From Desulfobacula sp. (GTDB taxonomy: Bacteria; Desulfobacterota; Desulfobacteria; Desulfobacterales; Desulfobacteraceae), in the NCBI RefSeq assembly GCF_021107415.1, contig NZ_JAIOSW010000384.1, positions 1 to 11,208 on the forward strand: a stretch of DNA of 11,208 nt, written 5' to 3'. The notes beneath the pieces are model-generated. The model worked only from the letters and a program-made list of their open reading frames with translations, was not told the origin of the DNA and did not search any database. The translations under genes were made by a program, and so were the position numbers. Of this stretch, positions 1 through 11,076 are shown piece after piece (the first letter of the stretch is position 1; each line of letters starts with the position of its first letter).

Positions 1-77
1 CACATGCCCAGAAAATAGGCCAGAAGAATATTACCGATAAATACGGAATTAATAAACAGACTTAATAGATCACCCAT
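1..77 (-). CDS. nqrE: Na+-translocating NADH:quinone reductase subunit E, N-terminus (partial)
   Basis: Only the first 25 codons lie in the window; the gene continues beyond base 1. The peptide begins MGDLLSLFINSVFIGN and goes on into LLAYFLGM, which matches the first membrane helix of NqrE (RnfA homologue). The cut codon 26 begins with TG, which fits the conserved cysteine that in this family binds an iron-sulfur centre between NqrD and NqrE. The start ATG at 77 has a good Shine-Dalgarno sequence (AGGAAGT) just upstream and lies 18 nt after the nqrD stop. It is the fifth nqr gene in the usual A-B-C-D-E order, so nqrF would be expected next, outside the window. NqrE is an integral membrane subunit of the sodium pump. 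Confidence 0.9.
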   Translation of the reverse strand, partial: MGDLLSLFINSVFIGNILLAYFLGM

Positions 78-95
78 GTGCACTTCCTATCTTTT

Positions 96-734
96 TTACT
101 TATATGTTCCGGGTTTCGATATCCCGGGCAGACTGTTTTTCAGCCAGACCAGCAACCCGATAATGAAAAAAGCCCCGGGTGCCAGCACCATGAGGCCCAT
201 GTTCTGGTATCCGGCATCAAAAACAAATTGCGGGATAATGTTGAACCCTAAAAATTTACCCGATCCTAAAAGCTCTCTTATAAAAGCCACTGTAACCAGT
301 ACCAGGCTGTAACCCAGACCGTTTCCAATACCGTCAAAAAAAGAATCCATAGGTTTGTTGGCAAGGGCAAAGGCTTCGGCCCTTCCAAGAACAATACAAT
401 TGGTGATGATCAGACCGACAAAGATAGACAATTGTTTGGAAATATCATAAAAAAAGGCTTTCAATACCTGATCAGTGATAATGACAAGGGAAGAAATAAT
501 AGCAAGCTCCACAATGATCCTGATATTGGATGGGATTCTTTTCCTCAAAGAAGATATGATCAGGCTGGAAAAAGCAGTTACTATTGTCAGGGCAATGCCC
601 ATGACGATGGAAGTGGACATTTTAACCGTGACAGCCAGTGCGGAACAAATTCCCAATACCTGGTAGGCAACGGGATTTTCCTTCCAGATGCCTCTGGTTA
701 CGATCTCTATATAGTTTGTTTTCTCTTCGGACAT
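96..734 (-). CDS. nqrD: Na+-translocating NADH:quinone reductase subunit D
   Basis: This 212-residue protein is a full-length NqrD (RnfE homologue) with about six hydrophobic helices. NqrD and NqrE form an antiparallel pair in the membrane that holds an iron-sulfur centre and forms part of the sodium path. Cys30 (in [10 protein letters not shown]) and Cys113 (in [11 protein letters not shown]) are at the places where the family has its ligand cysteines. The segment [19 protein letters not shown] is typical of NqrD/RnfE. The start ATG at 734 follows an AAGGA about 11 nt upstream, a slightly long spacing. It lies 51 nt after nqrC, the widest gap between nqr genes here, and a short tandem repeat occupies part of that gap. 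Confidence 0.95.
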
Positions 735-774: not shown

Positions 775-800
775 TCAGTATCTTTTTAATCAGTATCTTT
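775..800 (-). repeat. 15-nt tandem duplication across the nqrC stop codon
   Basis: On the plus strand TCAGTATCTTT occurs at 775-785 and again at 790-800, a period of 15 nt; a weaker third copy follows at about 760-770. The unit is a multiple of three. Read in the nqrC frame, the copy nearest the gene encodes KDTD then a stop, and the next copies encode KDTDPKDSK then a second stop. The sequence suggests local duplication at the 3' end of nqrC, which gave the gene an earlier stop. Confidence 0.7.
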
Positions 801-1538
801 ATTGGGGCTCATTTTTTTTGCTTTAAGCTGTTTCTGCCTGAAGGTAATGGACACGGAATCATATTTGATCAGGGTCTGTTTTATCCCTTGTGAAAGATAT
901 TTGCCGGTTAGTGTCGCCCCTGAAATTCCGTCCACATAATGGGCTTGTTCGTCTTTGGGAAGATTTGTGGCCTTTCCTTTGGCAATGCCCACTGAAACAA
1001 ATTTGTTCTGGGAGTTTAATATTTTCTTGCCTTTAAAGTTTTTCTGAAACCAGGCACTTTCTATTTCACCGCCTAACCCCGGGGTTTCCGAATGGCTGAA
1101 AATTGAGAATCCTGATATGGTCTGGCCATCATTTTCAAAGGCGAGATACCCTTGTATTTTCCCCCATAATCCTCGGCTGTTGATGGGAAGGATATACCCT
1201 TTTATCACTATATCCCCCTGGCCGGCCTTCTGAAAAAAATAGAGGTTCAAAGCATTGGGGACATAATTTCCAATGATTTTCCCCTGGTCATCGACCATTA
1301 CTTCCTTGATACGGGCATCATAAAGTTCATTTATTTTTTCTTTGGACGGCTTTTTATGGCCGATAAGGTTAGCAGCTTTGAGTATATTGATTTTTTTGTC
1401 AAGTTCCATATTGGCCACCTGAAATCCTTTTAACCCGCCTGCAGCAGCCGTAATTAAAAGGCTGCAGATGATAGAGAGCAGCAGGGCAAACACGATGACA
1501 TTTTTCTTGCTGTTTTTATCAAAGGGTTGATCAGACAT
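786..1538 (-). CDS. nqrC: Na+-translocating NADH:quinone reductase subunit C (FMN-binding)
   Basis: This 250-residue NqrC (RnfG homologue) carries a covalently bound FMN in the electron chain of the pump. It has one N-terminal membrane helix at about residues 13-33, then a large soluble domain on the outer face. The FMN attachment motif Dxx(S/T)GAT is present as DGISGAT, residues 204-210, making Thr210 the expected flavin-linked residue; a separate flavin transferase (ApbE) would be needed and is not in the window. ETPGLGGEIE (151-160) is another family signature. The length is close to the usual 250-260 residues and exceeds the usual RnfG length. The start ATG at 1538 has AAAGGAT upstream and overlaps the end of nqrB by 8 nt, suggesting coupled translation. 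The 3' end carries a small tandem duplication. Confidence 0.95.
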   Translation of the reverse strand: MSDQPFDKNSKKNVIVFALLLSIICSLLITAAAGGLKGFQVANMELDKKINILKAANLIGHKKPSKEKINELYDARIKEVMVDDQGKIIGNYVPNALNLYFFQKAGQGDIVIKGYILPINSRGLWGKIQGYLAFENDGQTISGFSIFSHSETPGLGGEIESAWFQKNFKGKKILNSQNKFVSVGIAKGKATNLPKDEQAHYVDGISGATLTGKYLSQGIKQTLIKYDSVSITFRQKQLKAKKMSPNKDTD

Positions 1539-2691
1539 TGGGTATCCTTTTTGATGCCTTATATTTAATCACAATATGATCCAGCATCGGAGCAAACACA
1601 TTCATAAAAAGAATGGCCAGCATAGTACCTTCGACAAAAGCCGGGTTGACCACCCGGATGATAACGGTTAAAAATCCGATTAAAAAACCGAAGATCCACC
1701 GTCCAGGGTTGGTGCCCGGGGCACTGACAGGGTCCGTAGCCATAAATGATATGCCGAATAAAAATCCACCGGCGCAAAGGTGGAATAAAGGGCCTGCATT
1801 CATCCAGGAGTCAGATCCACCCGGAATCAGATAAAAAATGATGGAGGTAACAATTAATCCAACACCCCCCCCGATAATAATCCTGAAGTTTGCAATCTTT
1901 GTGATGATCAGGAACAACGCCCCAAGGATACAGCATAAAGCTGAAGTTTCTCCAATACTTCCCGGTACAAACCCAAGAAAAAGATTGGATAAGCTAAAGC
2001 CGTCACCTGCAAGAGCCGTTGTAATTTTTTCACCTTCCGGGGCCAGAATAGACAGTGCGGTGGCCCCGCTGAAACCATCCACTGAATTTTTTACCGCCAC
2101 CCAGACATCTCCGGACATGGAAACAGGATAAGAGAAAAATAAAAAGGCTCTCCCTGTCAGTGCCGGGTTTAAAAAGTTTCTTCCGGTTCCGCCAAACACT
2201 TCTTTGCCGATAACCACACCAAATGAAATTCCCACGGCCACCTGCCATAAAGGAATGGTTGGAGGAAGGGTTAAGGGAAATAAAAGCCCTGTAACAAGAA
2301 ACCCTTCACTGATTTTATGTCTCCGGATGGTGGCAAAGACAATTTCCCAGAAAAACCCCACCCCATAAGAGACAATGATGATGGGTAAAACATATCGTGA
2401 CCCCAGCAGGAAAGACTGAAAAAAAGTATAGGATTCCCCCCGGGCAAGTCCTGCCTGAAAACCAGTGTTGTAAATACCAAATACCAGTACGGGCAGAAGG
2501 GCAATGAGGACAAAACTCATAAACCGTTTCAGGTCAAGGTTGTCTCTCACAAACGGACTGAATTGGATTTTTGGTGACGGGAAAAAGAAAAATGTTTTTG
2601 TGGCATCAAAAAGAGGCGCCAGTCTGTTGAGTTTTCCCGAGCCTGTAAAATATTTTTCACTCAGATCCAGTAGTTTCTTTAAAGGATGCAT
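1531..2691 (-). CDS. nqrB: Na+-translocating NADH:quinone reductase subunit B
   Basis: NqrB (RnfD homologue) is the large membrane subunit with around ten helices. It binds covalent FMN and, in known complexes, riboflavin, and contributes to sodium transport. I chose the start at 2691 (MHPLKKLLDLSEKYF), giving 386 residues, because NqrB proteins begin with this kind of segment (xLKKFLxxxxxxFxxGGKL). A longer reading from 2730 adds 13 residues inside nqrA. The FMN site DGFSGAT is clear, with the acceptor Thr at about residue 211 from this start. FGGTGRNFLNPAL and FMATDPVSAPGT are family signatures. It begins 4 nt after the nqrA stop. The Shine-Dalgarno is oddly placed: AGGGG lies almost against the ATG and AGGA lies 14 nt away, so the start is the least certain point. 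Confidence 0.93.
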   Translation of the reverse strand: MHPLKKLLDLSEKYFTGSGKLNRLAPLFDATKTFFFFPSPKIQFSPFVRDNLDLKRFMSFVLIALLPVLVFGIYNTGFQAGLARGESYTFFQSFLLGSRYVLPIIIVSYGVGFFWEIVFATIRRHKISEGFLVTGLLFPLTLPPTIPLWQVAVGISFGVVIGKEVFGGTGRNFLNPALTGRAFLFFSYPVSMSGDVWVAVKNSVDGFSGATALSILAPEGEKITTALAGDGFSLSNLFLGFVPGSIGETSALCCILGALFLIITKIANFRIIIGGGVGLIVTSIIFYLIPGGSDSWMNAGPLFHLCAGGFLFGISFMATDPVSAPGTNPGRWIFGFLIGFLTVIIRVVNPAFVEGTMLAILFMNVFAPMLDHIVIKYKASKRIPNV

Positions 2692-2695
2692 ACCC

Positions 2696-4033
2696 CTATT
2701 CTTTGTCCTTATAATGAGCGTCCATTCCATGGAACAATAATTTTGTCAGTTCGATTTTCGAGGGGCAGGCATATGAGCACAGACCGCAGTGGCAGCAATC
2801 CAGCAGACCATAACTCAATGCATCCTCGATTTCATCGCTTAGCAATGCTTTTATAATAAAATTGGGCATCAGATCAACGGGGCAGATGTTAACGCAACAG
2901 CCGCAATTGATACAGGCTCTTTCTTCTCCATGCAGGTTACAGTCAAGCTCTTTCGGTGTTTTGGTCAGACAGGAAAAAAATGTTTTGGAGACAGTGGGTT
3001 TTGTCAATCCCGGCTGAATAAATCCGAACAGCTCCTCTTTTTGATTGTCTTTGATAATGTTCAAGGTGTTTTCAAAAAATCCGATATGGGTTTGTGGATC
3101 AACAGATCTGCCATTGAAGCGGCCTGTTGTAATAAGGCTGTTCTCATCCAGGTTTCCTATAAGATTTTTGACAGGTGCTCCCTGACGGGTGATAATATGA
3201 GGTTTTTTATCATTTGACCTTGTAATCGTCACCACTCTTTTTACTGGATACCTGCCGGTTAAGAGGAATTTTGCAACCAGTATCAGATGCTCTGCAGAAA
3301 TGCACCAGGAGCGATTTTCTTCCCGGGTTCTTTTTAATTGATACAAAACAACCCCAGGGTCCCAGGCCGGATAAAAATCAGGAACAATATGGGTGATATG
3401 CTCTTTAAACCCATTGAGTCTATCCAGGCTGTCCAGATTATCCCGGCGTGATGTCACGATGATACGTTTTGACAATAAGCTTAAAATTTTTATGCCGAAT
3501 TCAAAAGAATTAATATTGTTTTCCAATATTACCCGTGGATGAGGGGAAAACAGGTCATTTCCATTTAGAGAAACGATGATCATGGGAGGCTCATGGTTTT
3601 CATCGGCTGTATCTTTAAACGGGAACTCCCGGAAACACTGCCAAAGCCCGCCTTCCTGTAATAGTTTTATGATTTTTGATCTGGGAACCGTATCAATACT
3701 TTCTAAAGGCAATGTTTCAAATTGAATGAATTCATTCTTTTTATCAAGACCAATCACTACCTCAAGCAATCTTCTGCGTTCTCCAAAAACAATATGTTTA
3801 ACAATTCCGGTGCCGGGAGCCACATAACGGATGCGTTTGTTTCTCTTGTCACAAAATAGAGGTGTACCTGTTTTTACGGGGTCATTCTCCTTAACCAGAA
3901 GTTTGGGGCGGATATAAGGGATATCCATGGCAGACACGGCCACCGTCTCAGGCTCTGGGATCTGAATAACACTCATATCCGGCATCCCGGCAAGTATTGT
4001 TTTATACCCTTTTGAAATTATAATATTTTTCAT
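2696..4033 (-). CDS. nqrA: Na+-translocating NADH:quinone reductase subunit A with two ferredoxin-type cysteine motifs
   Basis: This 445-residue protein matches NqrA along its whole length. It has an N-terminal ISKGYKTILAGMP segment and a lipoyl-like region YVAPGTGIVKHI (70-81). EGGLWQCFREFPF lies at 127-139, LLTGRYPVKRVV at 257-268, and ELFGFIQPG followed by SKTFFSCL near 334-356. NqrA is the peripheral cytoplasmic subunit associated with quinone reduction. Unusually, the C-terminal part holds two complete CxxCxxCxxxCP motifs, C374-C377-C380-C384 and C413-C416-C419-C423, the pattern that binds two [4Fe-4S] clusters in RnfC. In the standard Vibrio-type NqrA only the last two of these cysteines remain. 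The gene follows the chemoreceptor by 14 nt and has no recognisable Shine-Dalgarno before its ATG. RnfC is an unlikely alternative because the NqrA-specific segments are present. Confidence 0.93.
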   Translation of the reverse strand: MKNIIISKGYKTILAGMPDMSVIQIPEPETVAVSAMDIPYIRPKLLVKENDPVKTGTPLFCDKRNKRIRYVAPGTGIVKHIVFGERRRLLEVVIGLDKKNEFIQFETLPLESIDTVPRSKIIKLLQEGGLWQCFREFPFKDTADENHEPPMIIVSLNGNDLFSPHPRVILENNINSFEFGIKILSLLSKRIIVTSRRDNLDSLDRLNGFKEHITHIVPDFYPAWDPGVVLYQLKRTREENRSWCISAEHLILVAKFLLTGRYPVKRVVTITRSNDKKPHIITRQGAPVKNLIGNLDENSLITTGRFNGRSVDPQTHIGFFENTLNIIKDNQKEELFGFIQPGLTKPTVSKTFFSCLTKTPKELDCNLHGEERACINCGCCVNICPVDLMPNFIIKALLSDEIEDALSYGLLDCCHCGLCSYACPSKIELTKLLFHGMDAHYKDKE

Positions 4034-4047
4034 AGATTTAAAAATTT

Positions 4048-5703
4048 TTATTCTATTGTGAAGTGATCCACCATCTCATGAAGTTTTTTTGCCAGATGGG
4101 AAAGCTGTTCAGAGCTTTGGGCAATACGGGTCGAATTGGATGATATCTGGGAAATTGATTGACTGGCATCATTTACATCCCGGGCAATTTCAGTCGATGC
4201 AATGGATGTGTTTGCAATATTTGAACTGACTTCCTGGACCGCATCCGCACCCTGGGATACATTGTCGTCTATTTCGGAAATGGTGCTTGTCTGCTCATCA
4301 ACTGCAGCAGATATATTTTTAACAATATCATTGACGTCATTGATTATTTTCGCGATTTCCTTAATATCTTCAACCGTGGATGAGGTTGATCCCTTTATCC
4401 AGTCGATATTTTTTTTTATTTGTTCTGTGGCCTCTGTCGTCTGATTGGCAAGGCTTTTTATTTCATTTGCAACAACGGCAAACCCTTTTCCAGCTTCTCC
4501 GGCCCTGGCTGCTTCAATGGTTGCATTCAAAGCCAGAAGATTGGTCTGCTCCGAGATATCAGTGATGGCTTCAGAAACCTGACCGATTTTACGGACAGCA
4601 TTTCCTAGATCATCCACTCTTGAGGAGGCAGAATCAACTCTTTCAACTGCTTTATCGGAAATATGACTGGCTTTGTCAGCGTTTTGTGCGATTTTTTTGC
4701 TGGTTTCACTCATCCGGGATGTGGATTCGGCAATCTGCTGAGTGTTTGCTGTCAGCTCCTCCATAGCAGCTGCCACTGCATTCATGTCTTCGCTCATGGT
4801 TTCGGCACGCTGGGTAATATTTATGGTTTTTTCAGCAGAACTGTCAGTCTCTTGGGAAAGTTCTGTGGCAACACTGTTCATATCGGTTGAAGAGTTGTTC
4901 AGACCCTGGGCTTCCTGGTATATATTTTTCATATTTTCCTGCAGGGATTGGGCAAAAATGTTCAGATTATACCCTAAAAAATCCAATTCATCGAGCTCGT
5001 TTTTTGGCTTGTCTGCTGTTTTAAACCTTCTGGTCAGATCCCCGGAGCTCATCTCCTTGGCTGTGTCAGAGGACTGCAAGAGGTTTTTGACAATGGAGCG
5101 AATTTGAAGGATACTGATGACCATGAGAATGATGCCGATAATCAAGCCAAAGGTTTGAAAGAGAATCAGGCGCTGTACTTTTTTTTCTGAAGAATTCTGG
5201 AGCATCACGACGGCTGTATTCATTTCATTTAAAAGGTTCAAGTTATTATTTTTAATAAATTTCAGACTTTTAGCTGCACTTTCGTTTCCAGAAAGGGCAG
5301 TCTTCATATGGACTGAAAAATCACTCCAGATTTTTTTTACTTTATTGAGCTGGGAAAGAGCGGGTTCAGAAGCTTTGGGGCAGGTCGCATATGCTCCTTT
5401 CAGATCCAGAGATAACGGTGCCTTCCCTGAATCAGCCAGGGCAGACAGGGTAATATCAAATATTTTTATTGTATTGTCTGCACTTGAATTTAATTGTTTT
5501 TTTCCCTTTGATTCTGTTGCCCCGGAAAATAAAAAGAGTTCTTTGGACATTTTTTGAGAAAGCATACGTTGACGCCCGGCAAGGTTGATAACAAGACCAT
5601 CAGCTTTTTGTGCCGAAGTGGTGTACCAGGTAACCAGAAACATGGATAAAATGATAAACGACAATCCTGCGACAATCAAACCTAATTTGTATCTTATAGC
5701 CAT
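4048..5703 (-). CDS. Methyl-accepting chemotaxis protein with PilJ/NarX-type sensor domain
   Basis: This 551-residue transmembrane chemoreceptor has a first membrane helix at about 7-28. A sensor region opening with [16 protein letters not shown] (37-52) follows, the hallmark of the PilJ/type IV pili methyl-accepting N-terminal domain and related to the NarX P-box. A second helix lies at 179-199, then a HAMP-like linker near 200-260 and a long coiled-coil signalling domain. The conserved hairpin tip that contacts CheA and CheW is at about 383-412 ([20 protein letters not shown]). There is no C-terminal CheR-docking pentapeptide. The start ATG at 5703 follows a good AAGGAT. The ligand is unknown; nitrate or nitrite is a guess from the NarX likeness. 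It sits directly upstream of nqrA on the same strand and is probably cotranscribed with the pump genes. Confidence 0.92.
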
Positions 5704-8823: not shown

Positions 8824-11076
8824 TTAAATCCCTTTTTTGTATTGAGTGTTAGTTGAGGGATGAATAACTTGTTTGAGCTTTTTTTTTGTATCAAGGTTTC
8901 CATTAAGAAGGTTTTCAAAAAGCCTTATTATGCTTGCTTTATCCATTTCTATTTTAGTTTCGGTTTTTATGTCCCTTAAATCAATAAAACAATTGGAAAA
9001 AATATTGGGTATATCACTAACAATATCTGTATTCAAAAAATTGATATTATTATAGATACTATGGTAATTTCCCGCTGTTTTTTTAATTAAAAGCCGCTGA
9101 TTTTTTAAGTTTGTAATGGATGAAGATTTTTCACATTTTTGAATACACTCCTCATCCATTGTGTGTTTTTCACATCCAGTAACCTGATGAAGTAAACATT
9201 GTCTGCTGGTCATCAGTAAAATAGGATGATAGATGCTATAGTACAGTTTGAAATTCTCAGGCTTAATAATACTTTTTATCTGATATTTACTGATTTCATT
9301 AGAAATAAATGAGCCACAGCTATTAAAATTTTTTTTTAAGCATAAAAGGCTAAAGGAATTAACAATATTGAGATAGGGGCCTGCAATCCAGGGGATTCCT
9401 TTTTTGTAAGCTTCATAAGCTATCCCGGTATTATTGGTTACAATAAGTTTTGTCTGCACCTGTTCAAGAAATTCTACGGCAGCCCTATAGTTCTCTCCTA
9501 TCAAAACAGAGGGGAACCAGGGAATTAATTTTTTGTTTTTTAAGAAAAAGTCTAACAGCTTTAAAGATTCATTTTTAAAACCATTGGGAAGTTGAAAAAA
9601 GATATCGGCACAAGTTTTGTTACATAAGTCCACATCCTTTTGGGAAGAGATTAATACAGATAGAGCCGGAGGCTTTTTAAGTATATTTTTATTTAAGGAA
9701 GGAACATCAATTGGGTCAATCATCTCTTTTGAATCATTCAGGATGAATAAAAGCCTCTTTTTTATTGAAGTGATCTCATTAAAAGAGATAAAGAGATCTT
9801 TTTCAAGATGTTCTAATTCTAAATGCTGAATGGTGTGTTCCGTATCATTTACGGCTTTAAGTCTTTCTAATAAAAAATTGTAAGTGAGGCACTTGGCAAT
9901 GCTATTCTTTTTTGTTGGGACAAGATTAGTTTTGGAAAGCACTGTAAATGAAATGTCTGGTGTTTTTACCAATACTTTTAGAGGTACACCGGAGTTACCT
10001 GAAATACTGATTGTTAAAGGGCTTTTGGCTATACTTAATTGTTTGATTAAATTTTTGACATTTGCTGTAATTTCTTTTTTTTCTTCAAAAAGAGCCAGCT
10101 TGTCTTGTTCCATTTTTTTATTCGTAGCATACGTATTAATGTCAGCAAGATGTTTAATTGAATTATCCCGGGGATTATCAATAAACATCTCCTTATTAAT
10201 ATTTCCCTTTAAATAGGCATTTGAAAAGTCCCGGTTAAAGACTTTATAAAGCCCACTGTTGTCAGTATTCAGTCTGTTTTTAGCATAAAAACTTTGGAGT
10301 TGTTTTTTCCAGCAATTTACCACTGTATAAACGTAATCAAGCCGCTTCATTCTTCCTTCAATTTTTATTGAGTCAACTTTTGCATCATATAATTCTTTTA
10401 GATCAAAATAGGCTGAATTGTCTTTTAGATTAAGAGGGAAATTTTTATTTTCCAAAGTAGGTAAATACCTGTCCCTGCAAGGTTGGCTGCACCTGCCGCG
10501 ATTTCCTGAATTTCCTCCCAGAACAGAACTTATGTAACAAATTCCTGAAAAAGAGATACAATAGGAACCATGGATAAAGACCTCAGTTGACATATTATTT
10601 TTATGTCCAGTTAAAGCCAATGCTTTTATCTCGTTAATATTTAACTCTCTTGATAGATTAATCCGGGTGGCGGTCAGTTTATTTAAAAAACTTATCTGAC
10701 CTTCATTATGAGTATTAAGCTGAGTAGAGGCATGTATTTTAAGAGCTTTAAAATATCTTGATAATAGATAAAACAATCCTAAATCCTGAACAATTACCCC
10801 ATCGATGTCAGTGTTGAGCAGCTTGTTCAACAGGCGTATAAGGAAGGGGATTTCACTTCCCACTATCAGTATATTGAGGGTAAGATACACTTTGCAGTTA
10901 TGCCTATGCCCAAGATGTATAATCCCAATTAAATCTTCAAAATCTATGTTTGTGGCCCGGTTCCTGGCATTCAATTGATTCAAACCACAGTATACAGCAT
11001 CTGCCCCTGCAATAACTGCCGCTTTTATAGACTCAATATCTCCGCCCGGTGCCAGTAATTCAATTTTTCTTTTCAT
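8824..11076 (-). CDS. rlhA: U32 family protein, RlhA-like (probable 23S rRNA cytidine hydroxylase)
   Basis: This 750-residue protein belongs to family U32, once called collagenase-like peptidases. Studied members instead carry out iron-sulfur-dependent, O2-independent hydroxylation of RNA (RlhA, TrhP) or of ubiquinone precursors (UbiU/UbiV). The N-terminal barrel starts with KIELLAPGGDIESIKAAVIA. The signature EVFIHGSYCISFSGICYIS (165-183) and GGNSGNRGRCSQPCR (187-201) supply Cys173, Cys180, Cys196 and Cys200. A middle part near 340-450 resembles DUF3656. A C-terminal cluster has Cys627, Cys635, Cys644 and Cys648. The domain order fits RlhA (about 650 residues in E. coli), but this protein is longer. 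The assignment to 5-hydroxycytidine formation on 23S rRNA is inferred. The ATG at 11076 gives a normal N-terminus but has no clear Shine-Dalgarno. The gene is strikingly AT-rich. Confidence 0.8.
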   Translation of the reverse strand: MKRKIELLAPGGDIESIKAAVIAGADAVYCGLNQLNARNRATNIDFEDLIGIIHLGHRHNCKVYLTLNILIVGSEIPFLIRLLNKLLNTDIDGVIVQDLGLFYLLSRYFKALKIHASTQLNTHNEGQISFLNKLTATRINLSRELNINEIKALALTGHKNNMSTEVFIHGSYCISFSGICYISSVLGGNSGNRGRCSQPCRDRYLPTLENKNFPLNLKDNSAYFDLKELYDAKVDSIKIEGRMKRLDYVYTVVNCWKKQLQSFYAKNRLNTDNSGLYKVFNRDFSNAYLKGNINKEMFIDNPRDNSIKHLADINTYATNKKMEQDKLALFEEKKEITANVKNLIKQLSIAKSPLTISISGNSGVPLKVLVKTPDISFTVLSKTNLVPTKKNSIAKCLTYNFLLERLKAVNDTEHTIQHLELEHLEKDLFISFNEITSIKKRLLFILNDSKEMIDPIDVPSLNKNILKKPPALSVLISSQKDVDLCNKTCADIFFQLPNGFKNESLKLLDFFLKNKKLIPWFPSVLIGENYRAAVEFLEQVQTKLIVTNNTGIAYEAYKKGIPWIAGPYLNIVNSFSLLCLKKNFNSCGSFISNEISKYQIKSIIKPENFKLYYSIYHPILLMTSRQCLLHQVTGCEKHTMDEECIQKCEKSSSITNLKNQRLLIKKTAGNYHSIYNNINFLNTDIVSDIPNIFSNCFIDLRDIKTETKIEMDKASIIRLFENLLNGNLDTKKKLKQVIHPSTNTQYKKGI

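Follow-up and report, generated by a model that had tools for sequence, protein, structure and literature searches.

The window analysed here, a stretch of 11,208 nucleotides of Desulfobacula sp. DNA (assembly GCF_021107415.1, contig NZ_JAIOSW010000384.1), contains the beginning of an operon for the Na+-pumping NADH:quinone oxidoreductase (Na+-NQR), whose NqrA subunit carries two complete ligand motifs for [4Fe-4S] clusters. With moderate confidence, this protein is assigned to a conserved NqrA subfamily that has retained both [4Fe-4S] sites of an RnfC-like ancestor, probably as an electron relay. NqrA is elsewhere stated to be devoid of cofactors or to have lost them (PMC12174285, PMC9588780, PMC11889175; these and all papers cited below in their consulted portions). 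With all eight ligands present, contrary to that statement, the window protein is treated as a variant form within the NqrA clade and not as a standard NqrA.

The pattern CxxCxxCxxxCP occurs twice in the window NqrA (C374, C377, C380, C384 and C413, C416, C419, C423), at exactly the residues given by the original prediction, which had been made from the DNA letters alone. The eight cysteine codons cover window positions 2765-2914 in the minus-strand frame running from 4033 to 2696, and the codon of P424 reaches 2762, matching the span of 2762..2914 claimed there. Composition does not account for the motif pair, because none of 200,000 shuffles of the protein's own residues contained both motifs (a single motif arose in 9 of 50,000), and a chance origin was rejected on that ground. 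In an alignment of 82 sequences, 36 columns are invariant, those of the eight motif cysteines among them, while the other seven of the protein's 15 cysteines vary, the commonest residue at their positions reaching only 34-79%. A Pfam 4Fe-4S dicluster match spans residues 371-424, barely above threshold (25.7 of 25.5 bits). Judging from these sequence patterns, the binding of two [4Fe-4S] clusters by the window NqrA is very likely; the earlier claim that NqrA carries two clusters is strongly implied by the ligand pattern, its invariance and the fold.

Homologs were collected with the window NqrA as query (best 120 of 341 matches) and with a distant relative, P0121 (best 120 of 834); the resulting set of 241 proteins, which includes the window protein and the second query, was picked by similarity to eight-cysteine queries. 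All 241 are distinct sequences and carry both motifs with all eight cysteines, which makes the motif pair a trait of the family. In a third list (best 120 of 211), the motifs are present in 117 of 121 proteins and absent from P0281 and three short proteins. The named sources of the homologs are Desulfobacula, Desulfobacteraceae, Desulfobacterales, Desulfonema magnum, Candidatus Magnetomorum and Thermodesulfobacteriota, the remaining labels are broader (Deltaproteobacteria, Proteobacteria, Pseudomonadota), and the majority of rows are nameless. Some of the homologs bear the NCBI name '4Fe-4S dicluster domain-containing protein', so the motif is already visible in annotation.

Among 395 Desulfobacterota genomes, 104 gave a match, and the 17 above 90 bits comprise seven eight-cysteine forms, two hybrids (described below) and eight canonical-like forms. 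The C-terminus is readable in six of these eight; G382 lacks it on its contig, and in G367 the nqrA frame is merged with nqrB, so this genome is missing from the NqrA alignment and its NqrB from the core tree. The statement that just the last two cysteines survive in ordinary NqrA proved true of Vibrio cholerae and of all six readable canonical Desulfobacterota rows, but not of the alphaproteobacterial row, with one cysteine, or of the Bacteroidota rows, with one, one and none. That the cysteines might be common in characterised NqrA is contradicted by V. cholerae, the sole NqrA with a solved structure found. With the cysteines excluded, the ferredoxin-like domain has a mean pairwise identity of 0.63 in the eight-cysteine group, against 0.41-0.49 in the other domains, and its conservation excess is largest in this group; in ordinary RnfC, the same domain is not the best-conserved (0.44 against 0.47-0.52).

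By tree and predicted fold, the window protein is an NqrA and not an RnfC. Its NQRA_N and NQRA_2nd domains score 78.9 and 67.8 bits, both above the Pfam gathering score of 25, the rnfC model matches just 84 C-terminal residues with 74 bits, and the whole-chain fold, as modelled, is that of solved NqrA. The tree of the N-terminal part places the protein in the NqrA clade with a support of 100. With the eight cysteine columns masked, the tree of the C-terminal part (87 usable columns) groups the eight-cysteine proteins with NqrA, including P0340 and P0355, away from the RnfC of Rnf1 and Rnf2 systems (97). P0340 and P0355 combine the NQRA_2nd domain with eight cysteines, and in the tree of the N-terminal part they fall outside the other NqrA (support 100). 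Core-subunit trees put the eight-cysteine group within Nqr, as sister to the cysteine-free forms with weak support; a Persicobacter locus (L082), which is an Rnf, clustered with Rnf in the core tree. The tree comparison thus left the protein where the original prediction had put it, and no placement inside RnfC appeared. A Gly369-x-x-Arg372 signature, its Arg two residues ahead of the first Cys, is found in every eight-cysteine row (20/20), every cysteine-free row (10/10) and both hybrid rows, and the equivalent of Arg372 in none of 19 Rnf1 or Rnf2 RnfC rows.

NqrB, NqrC and NqrD all exceed the NCBIfam Nqr model cut-offs and fall under the TIGR cut-offs for rnfD, rnfG and rnfE; NqrD is additionally above one RsxE subfamily model (196.5 of 184), which is lower than its nqrD score of 298-300. 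The A-B-C-D-E order that had been put forward as an Nqr feature is correct (A to D whole, then the start of nqrE), but it cannot separate Nqr from Rnf, because rnfCDGEA runs in the same order (PMC4014512). The window itself stops inside nqrE. In relatives, nqrF follows nqrE, with nqrABCDEF complete on the contigs of 10 of 13 relatives and the remaining three contigs ending early, and no above-cut-off rnfB match was found on the nqr contigs of the 13 genomes. NqrM was not found in any of 12 eight-cysteine or hybrid genomes; the control genomes gave no match either, and 6 of 7 canonical Desulfobacterota were without NqrM, so nothing can be read into its absence.

The stretches G[LM]GGAxFP and NGxECEP-like, which we take to mark the flavin mononucleotide (FMN) and nicotinamide adenine dinucleotide (NAD) site of RnfC (a pattern of RnfC and NuoF that recurs in the aligned RnfC rows), are present in 11 of 12 ordinary RnfC and absent from Rnf2 RnfC (0/6), the hybrids (0/2), cysteine-free NqrA (0/10) and the eight-cysteine NqrA (0/241). 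The N-terminal stretch of NqrB, which forms quinone-binding helices in V. cholerae (PMC12174285), is present in 14 of 14 aligned rows, as is the FMN-threonine motif, and NADH input and quinone output therefore look intact, with the cluster pair as an addition to them. A loss of the quinone site, considered as an explanation, is unsupported by the same two counts. Where V. cholerae has G141, the NqrB of the eight-cysteine group has Phe or Leu at the aligned position, and this does not mark the group off, because Bacteroidota also have Leu there. In one relative (L005), the FMN-threonine motif of NqrB reads SSAT and not SGAT.

A hybrid operon was encountered in G086 (L046, 2140-7621) and G050 (L045, 893-4725), both genomes available for one class of the phylum. 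Its A subunit resembles RnfC, has the full set of eight cysteines, shows altered FMN/NAD stretches and, in G086, scores 221 of 246 bits with the rnfC model. The NqrB-like subunit carries an N-terminal extension, and NqrF is above cut-off in G086, the G050 contig stopping after nqrD. In the core tree, the hybrid pair branches just outside Nqr, as its sister. Together with this pair, a graded series can be drawn, in which RnfC has flavin and cluster ligands, the hybrid and the eight-cysteine NqrA have cluster ligands only, and ordinary NqrA has neither. The simplest history is that the flavin went first and the clusters last, with the clusters retained in the eight-cysteine group: NqrF would have been recruited and the RnfC flavin site lost at the outset, and the clusters would have disappeared, once or more than once, on the way to the NqrA of Bacteroidota and of proteobacteria. 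The Fe-S domain looks inherited, not borrowed, and cysteine-free NqrA looks derived. The suggestion that the pump is ancestral has good if not conclusive support, given the position in the NqrA clade and the eight cysteines common to RnfC and the hybrid neighbouring Nqr. It has been proposed that the RnfC cysteines were lost after the loss of RnfB (PMC4014512). With the hybrid operon branching next to the eight-cysteine group, the question of how NQR arose would become open to more direct tests.

By analogy with RnfC, the clusters would fold into a ferredoxin-like domain above NqrB, and the nearer one would be within electron-transfer distance of the NqrB riboflavin. As the flavin that accepts electrons from the clusters in RnfC is missing, the outer cluster would, less certainly, swap single electrons with a soluble partner, and the pair would probably act as an electron relay between the NqrB riboflavin and that partner. 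Next to its sites for NADH (NqrF) and quinone (NqrB), NQR would then have a second port for electrons on the cytosolic side. A more specific proposal, advanced only tentatively, is a three-port Na+-NQR, with NADH at NqrF, quinone at NqrB and a reversible port at the NqrA clusters to a low-potential soluble carrier, representing a surviving Rnf-to-Nqr step bracketed by the hybrid with its RnfC-like subunit and NqrF. If true, a single Na+ pump could in such bacteria link three pools, those of NADH, of quinone and of a ferredoxin-like carrier.

The most serious competitor to an electron relay, still rather unlikely, is that the clusters are bound yet purely structural, stabilising the C-terminal domain and its interface with NqrB while passing no electrons during turnover. 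The missing FMN/NAD motifs are in its favour, as they leave no visible acceptor for cluster electrons, and V. cholerae NqrA has the same fold without a cluster, the domain being best-conserved in cysteine-free NqrA too. Yet the existence of the domain without clusters in Vibrio and Bacteroidota means that the structural need is not general, and the completeness of both sites throughout the set of 241 also speaks against a structural role. Recombination could instead have restored the Fe-S domain, if a cysteine-free NqrA had taken the C-terminal domain of an RnfC. Nqr and Rnf genes do co-occur in genomes (five Rnf2 regions come from eight-cysteine genomes), and an approximately unbiased (AU) test on 46 of the 68 C-part rows, with 22 left out, did not reject the RnfC grouping at 5% (p = 0.082, log-likelihood difference 24.9). 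Such a swap is nevertheless disfavoured and judged improbable, given the grouping of the cysteine-masked C part with NqrA, not with Rnf1 or Rnf2 RnfC, and the Gly-x-x-Arg signature common to eight-cysteine, cysteine-free and hybrid rows.

Two further readings can be given very little credence. For cysteines that bind another metal, or none, it can be said that no biochemical data were found, but the exact ferredoxin spacing occurs twice, at RnfC positions that hold clusters in solved structures (PMC9588780), and the protein's other cysteines are not conserved. Slightly less credible still is an RnfC of an Rnf operon mistaken for NqrA. The C-terminal match to the rnfC model, the RsxE score of NqrD and the identical gene order could be cited for it; the higher scores of NqrB, NqrC and NqrD on Nqr models, NqrF in relatives with no above-cut-off rnfB match on the nqr contigs of 13 genomes, the whole-protein fold, the trees and the missing FMN/NAD motifs led to its rejection.

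Several observations weigh against a cluster-retaining NqrA subfamily with a relay function. The window protein is under the NCBIfam naming cut-offs for NqrA (TIGR01936, 243.8 of 321; NF003761, 432.1 of 450), although an equivalog cut-off is a naming threshold and no structural definition, and the relative P0121 is above that of NF003761 (460.2 of 450). The whole-chain model has low confidence in the ferredoxin-like region (residues 364-373 under 50), and the alignment behind the separate model of this domain held RnfC rows (18 of 34), which favoured an RnfC-like outcome. The C-part tree, with its 87 columns, puts the cysteine-free forms inside the eight-cysteine group and not as clean sisters, and in the core tree the cysteine-free forms are one clade at only 58.8/81. 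These trees include ten cysteine-free NqrA rows and no Chlorobi, Planctomycetota or Chlamydiota, and a published tree nests Desulfobacteraceae Nqr, as an early branch, inside Chlorobi/Bacteroidetes (PMC4014512). High conservation of the ferredoxin-like domain is by itself no proof of cluster use, because this domain also ranks first in the ten cysteine-free NqrA (0.51, other domains 0.41-0.45) and among the proteins of the hybrid list (0.43, other domains 0.32-0.39). Neither the relay nor the ferredoxin-like electron input envisaged by the original prediction gains direct support from the gene neighbourhood: no partner gene was seen to recur near the operon, as judged by eye, without family search, among the closest open reading frames, at most four on either side.

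Table 1. Operon genes and cluster motifs in the window.
Feature	Positions	Strand	Remarks
nqrA, 445 amino acids (P0001)	2696..4033	minus	NQRA_N and NQRA_2nd; both 4Fe-4S motifs complete in a ferredoxin-like domain at the C-terminus
First cluster motif, C374-x2-C377-x2-C380-x3-C384 then Pro	2882..2914	minus	invariant in 82/82 aligned sequences
Second cluster motif, C413-x2-C416-x2-C419-x3-C423 then Pro	2765..2797	minus	invariant in 82/82 aligned sequences
nqrB	1531..2730	minus	likelier start is the in-frame Met at 2691; N-terminal stretch and FMN-threonine motif SGAT present
nqrC	786..1538	minus	FMN_bind domain, SGAT motif
nqrD	96..734	minus	cysteine stretches GICSA and TNCIV, aligned across Nqr and Rnf rows
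nqrE, first 25 codons (77 to 3), truncated by window edge	1..77	minus	

Immediately upstream of nqrA and in the same orientation lies a gene for a chemoreceptor with a PilJ-type N-terminus (window 4048-5703), likewise seen, by eye, in the relatives L004 and L006. A cyclophilin gene occurs farther upstream of nqrA at several Desulfobacula-type loci, also by eye. A 750-amino-acid protein (window 8824-11076) has a Pfam U32 peptidase domain, and its best NCBIfam match, TrhP, is far under the naming cut-off (148.8 of 534 bits).

In the literature searched, with most subscription papers beyond its reach, no description of an NqrA with cluster motifs was found. Two publications of 2025, a review and a structural paper, state in general that NqrA has no redox cofactors or has lost them, and the review is unable to assign it a direct function (PMC12174285, PMC11889175); in an older view, NqrA itself reduces quinone (PMC6560451). 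The consulted parts of the Desulfobacterium autotrophicum and Desulfotignum phosphitoxidans genome papers report Nqr and leave the cysteines unmentioned, and the bacterial family to which the hosts are related is reported as cosmopolitan in marine sediments (PMC11887813). An NqrA lineage with cluster sites but no flavin site would reveal the order in which RnfC was dismantled, and the role of NqrA could be studied in the eight-cysteine lineage as a natural test case. The pump may preserve an intermediate stage between the Rnf and Nqr energy-converting machines. If its clusters act in catalysis, NQR has an electron port undescribed in the literature consulted.

Compared with known systems, the window NqrA resembles that of V. 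cholerae (PDB 7xk3, 8a1u, 8acw, 4u9o) in its fold over nearly the whole chain, its operon position, the absence of an RnfC-type FMN/NAD motif and, in its relatives, an NqrF-containing complex. The V. cholerae protein differs in retaining two of the eight cysteines, is only 23-24% identical and, according to the 2025 review, contains no redox cofactor (PMC12174285). The NqrA of Bacteroidota (Parabacteroides, Phocaeicola, Prevotella; L078-L080) likewise lies within a full nqrABCDEF operon and differs in having none or one of the eight cysteines. The Rnf2-type RnfC of Desulfobacteraceae (D. toluolica type), whose electron partner is reported as unidentified (PMC5109826), shares the eight cysteines (6/6) and lacks FMN/NAD motifs (0/6), but groups with Rnf in the core tree. 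All five Rnf2 regions extending beyond rnfA have a gene of 692-721 amino acids after it, and the four scanned fuse an rnfB part with an NAD(P)-binding, GltD-like part. In the six Rnf2-type operons (L060-L064, L075), RnfD is without the threonine that bears covalent FMN in RnfD/NqrB (6/6, alignment by eye). RnfC itself (Clostridium tetanomorphum 7zc6, Azotobacter vinelandii 8ahx/8rbq, Acetobacterium woodii 9eri) differs in its FMN and NAD site, in having RnfB in place of NqrF and in its tree position outside Nqr, and shares with the window NqrA the eight cluster ligands and the ferredoxin-like C-terminal domain.
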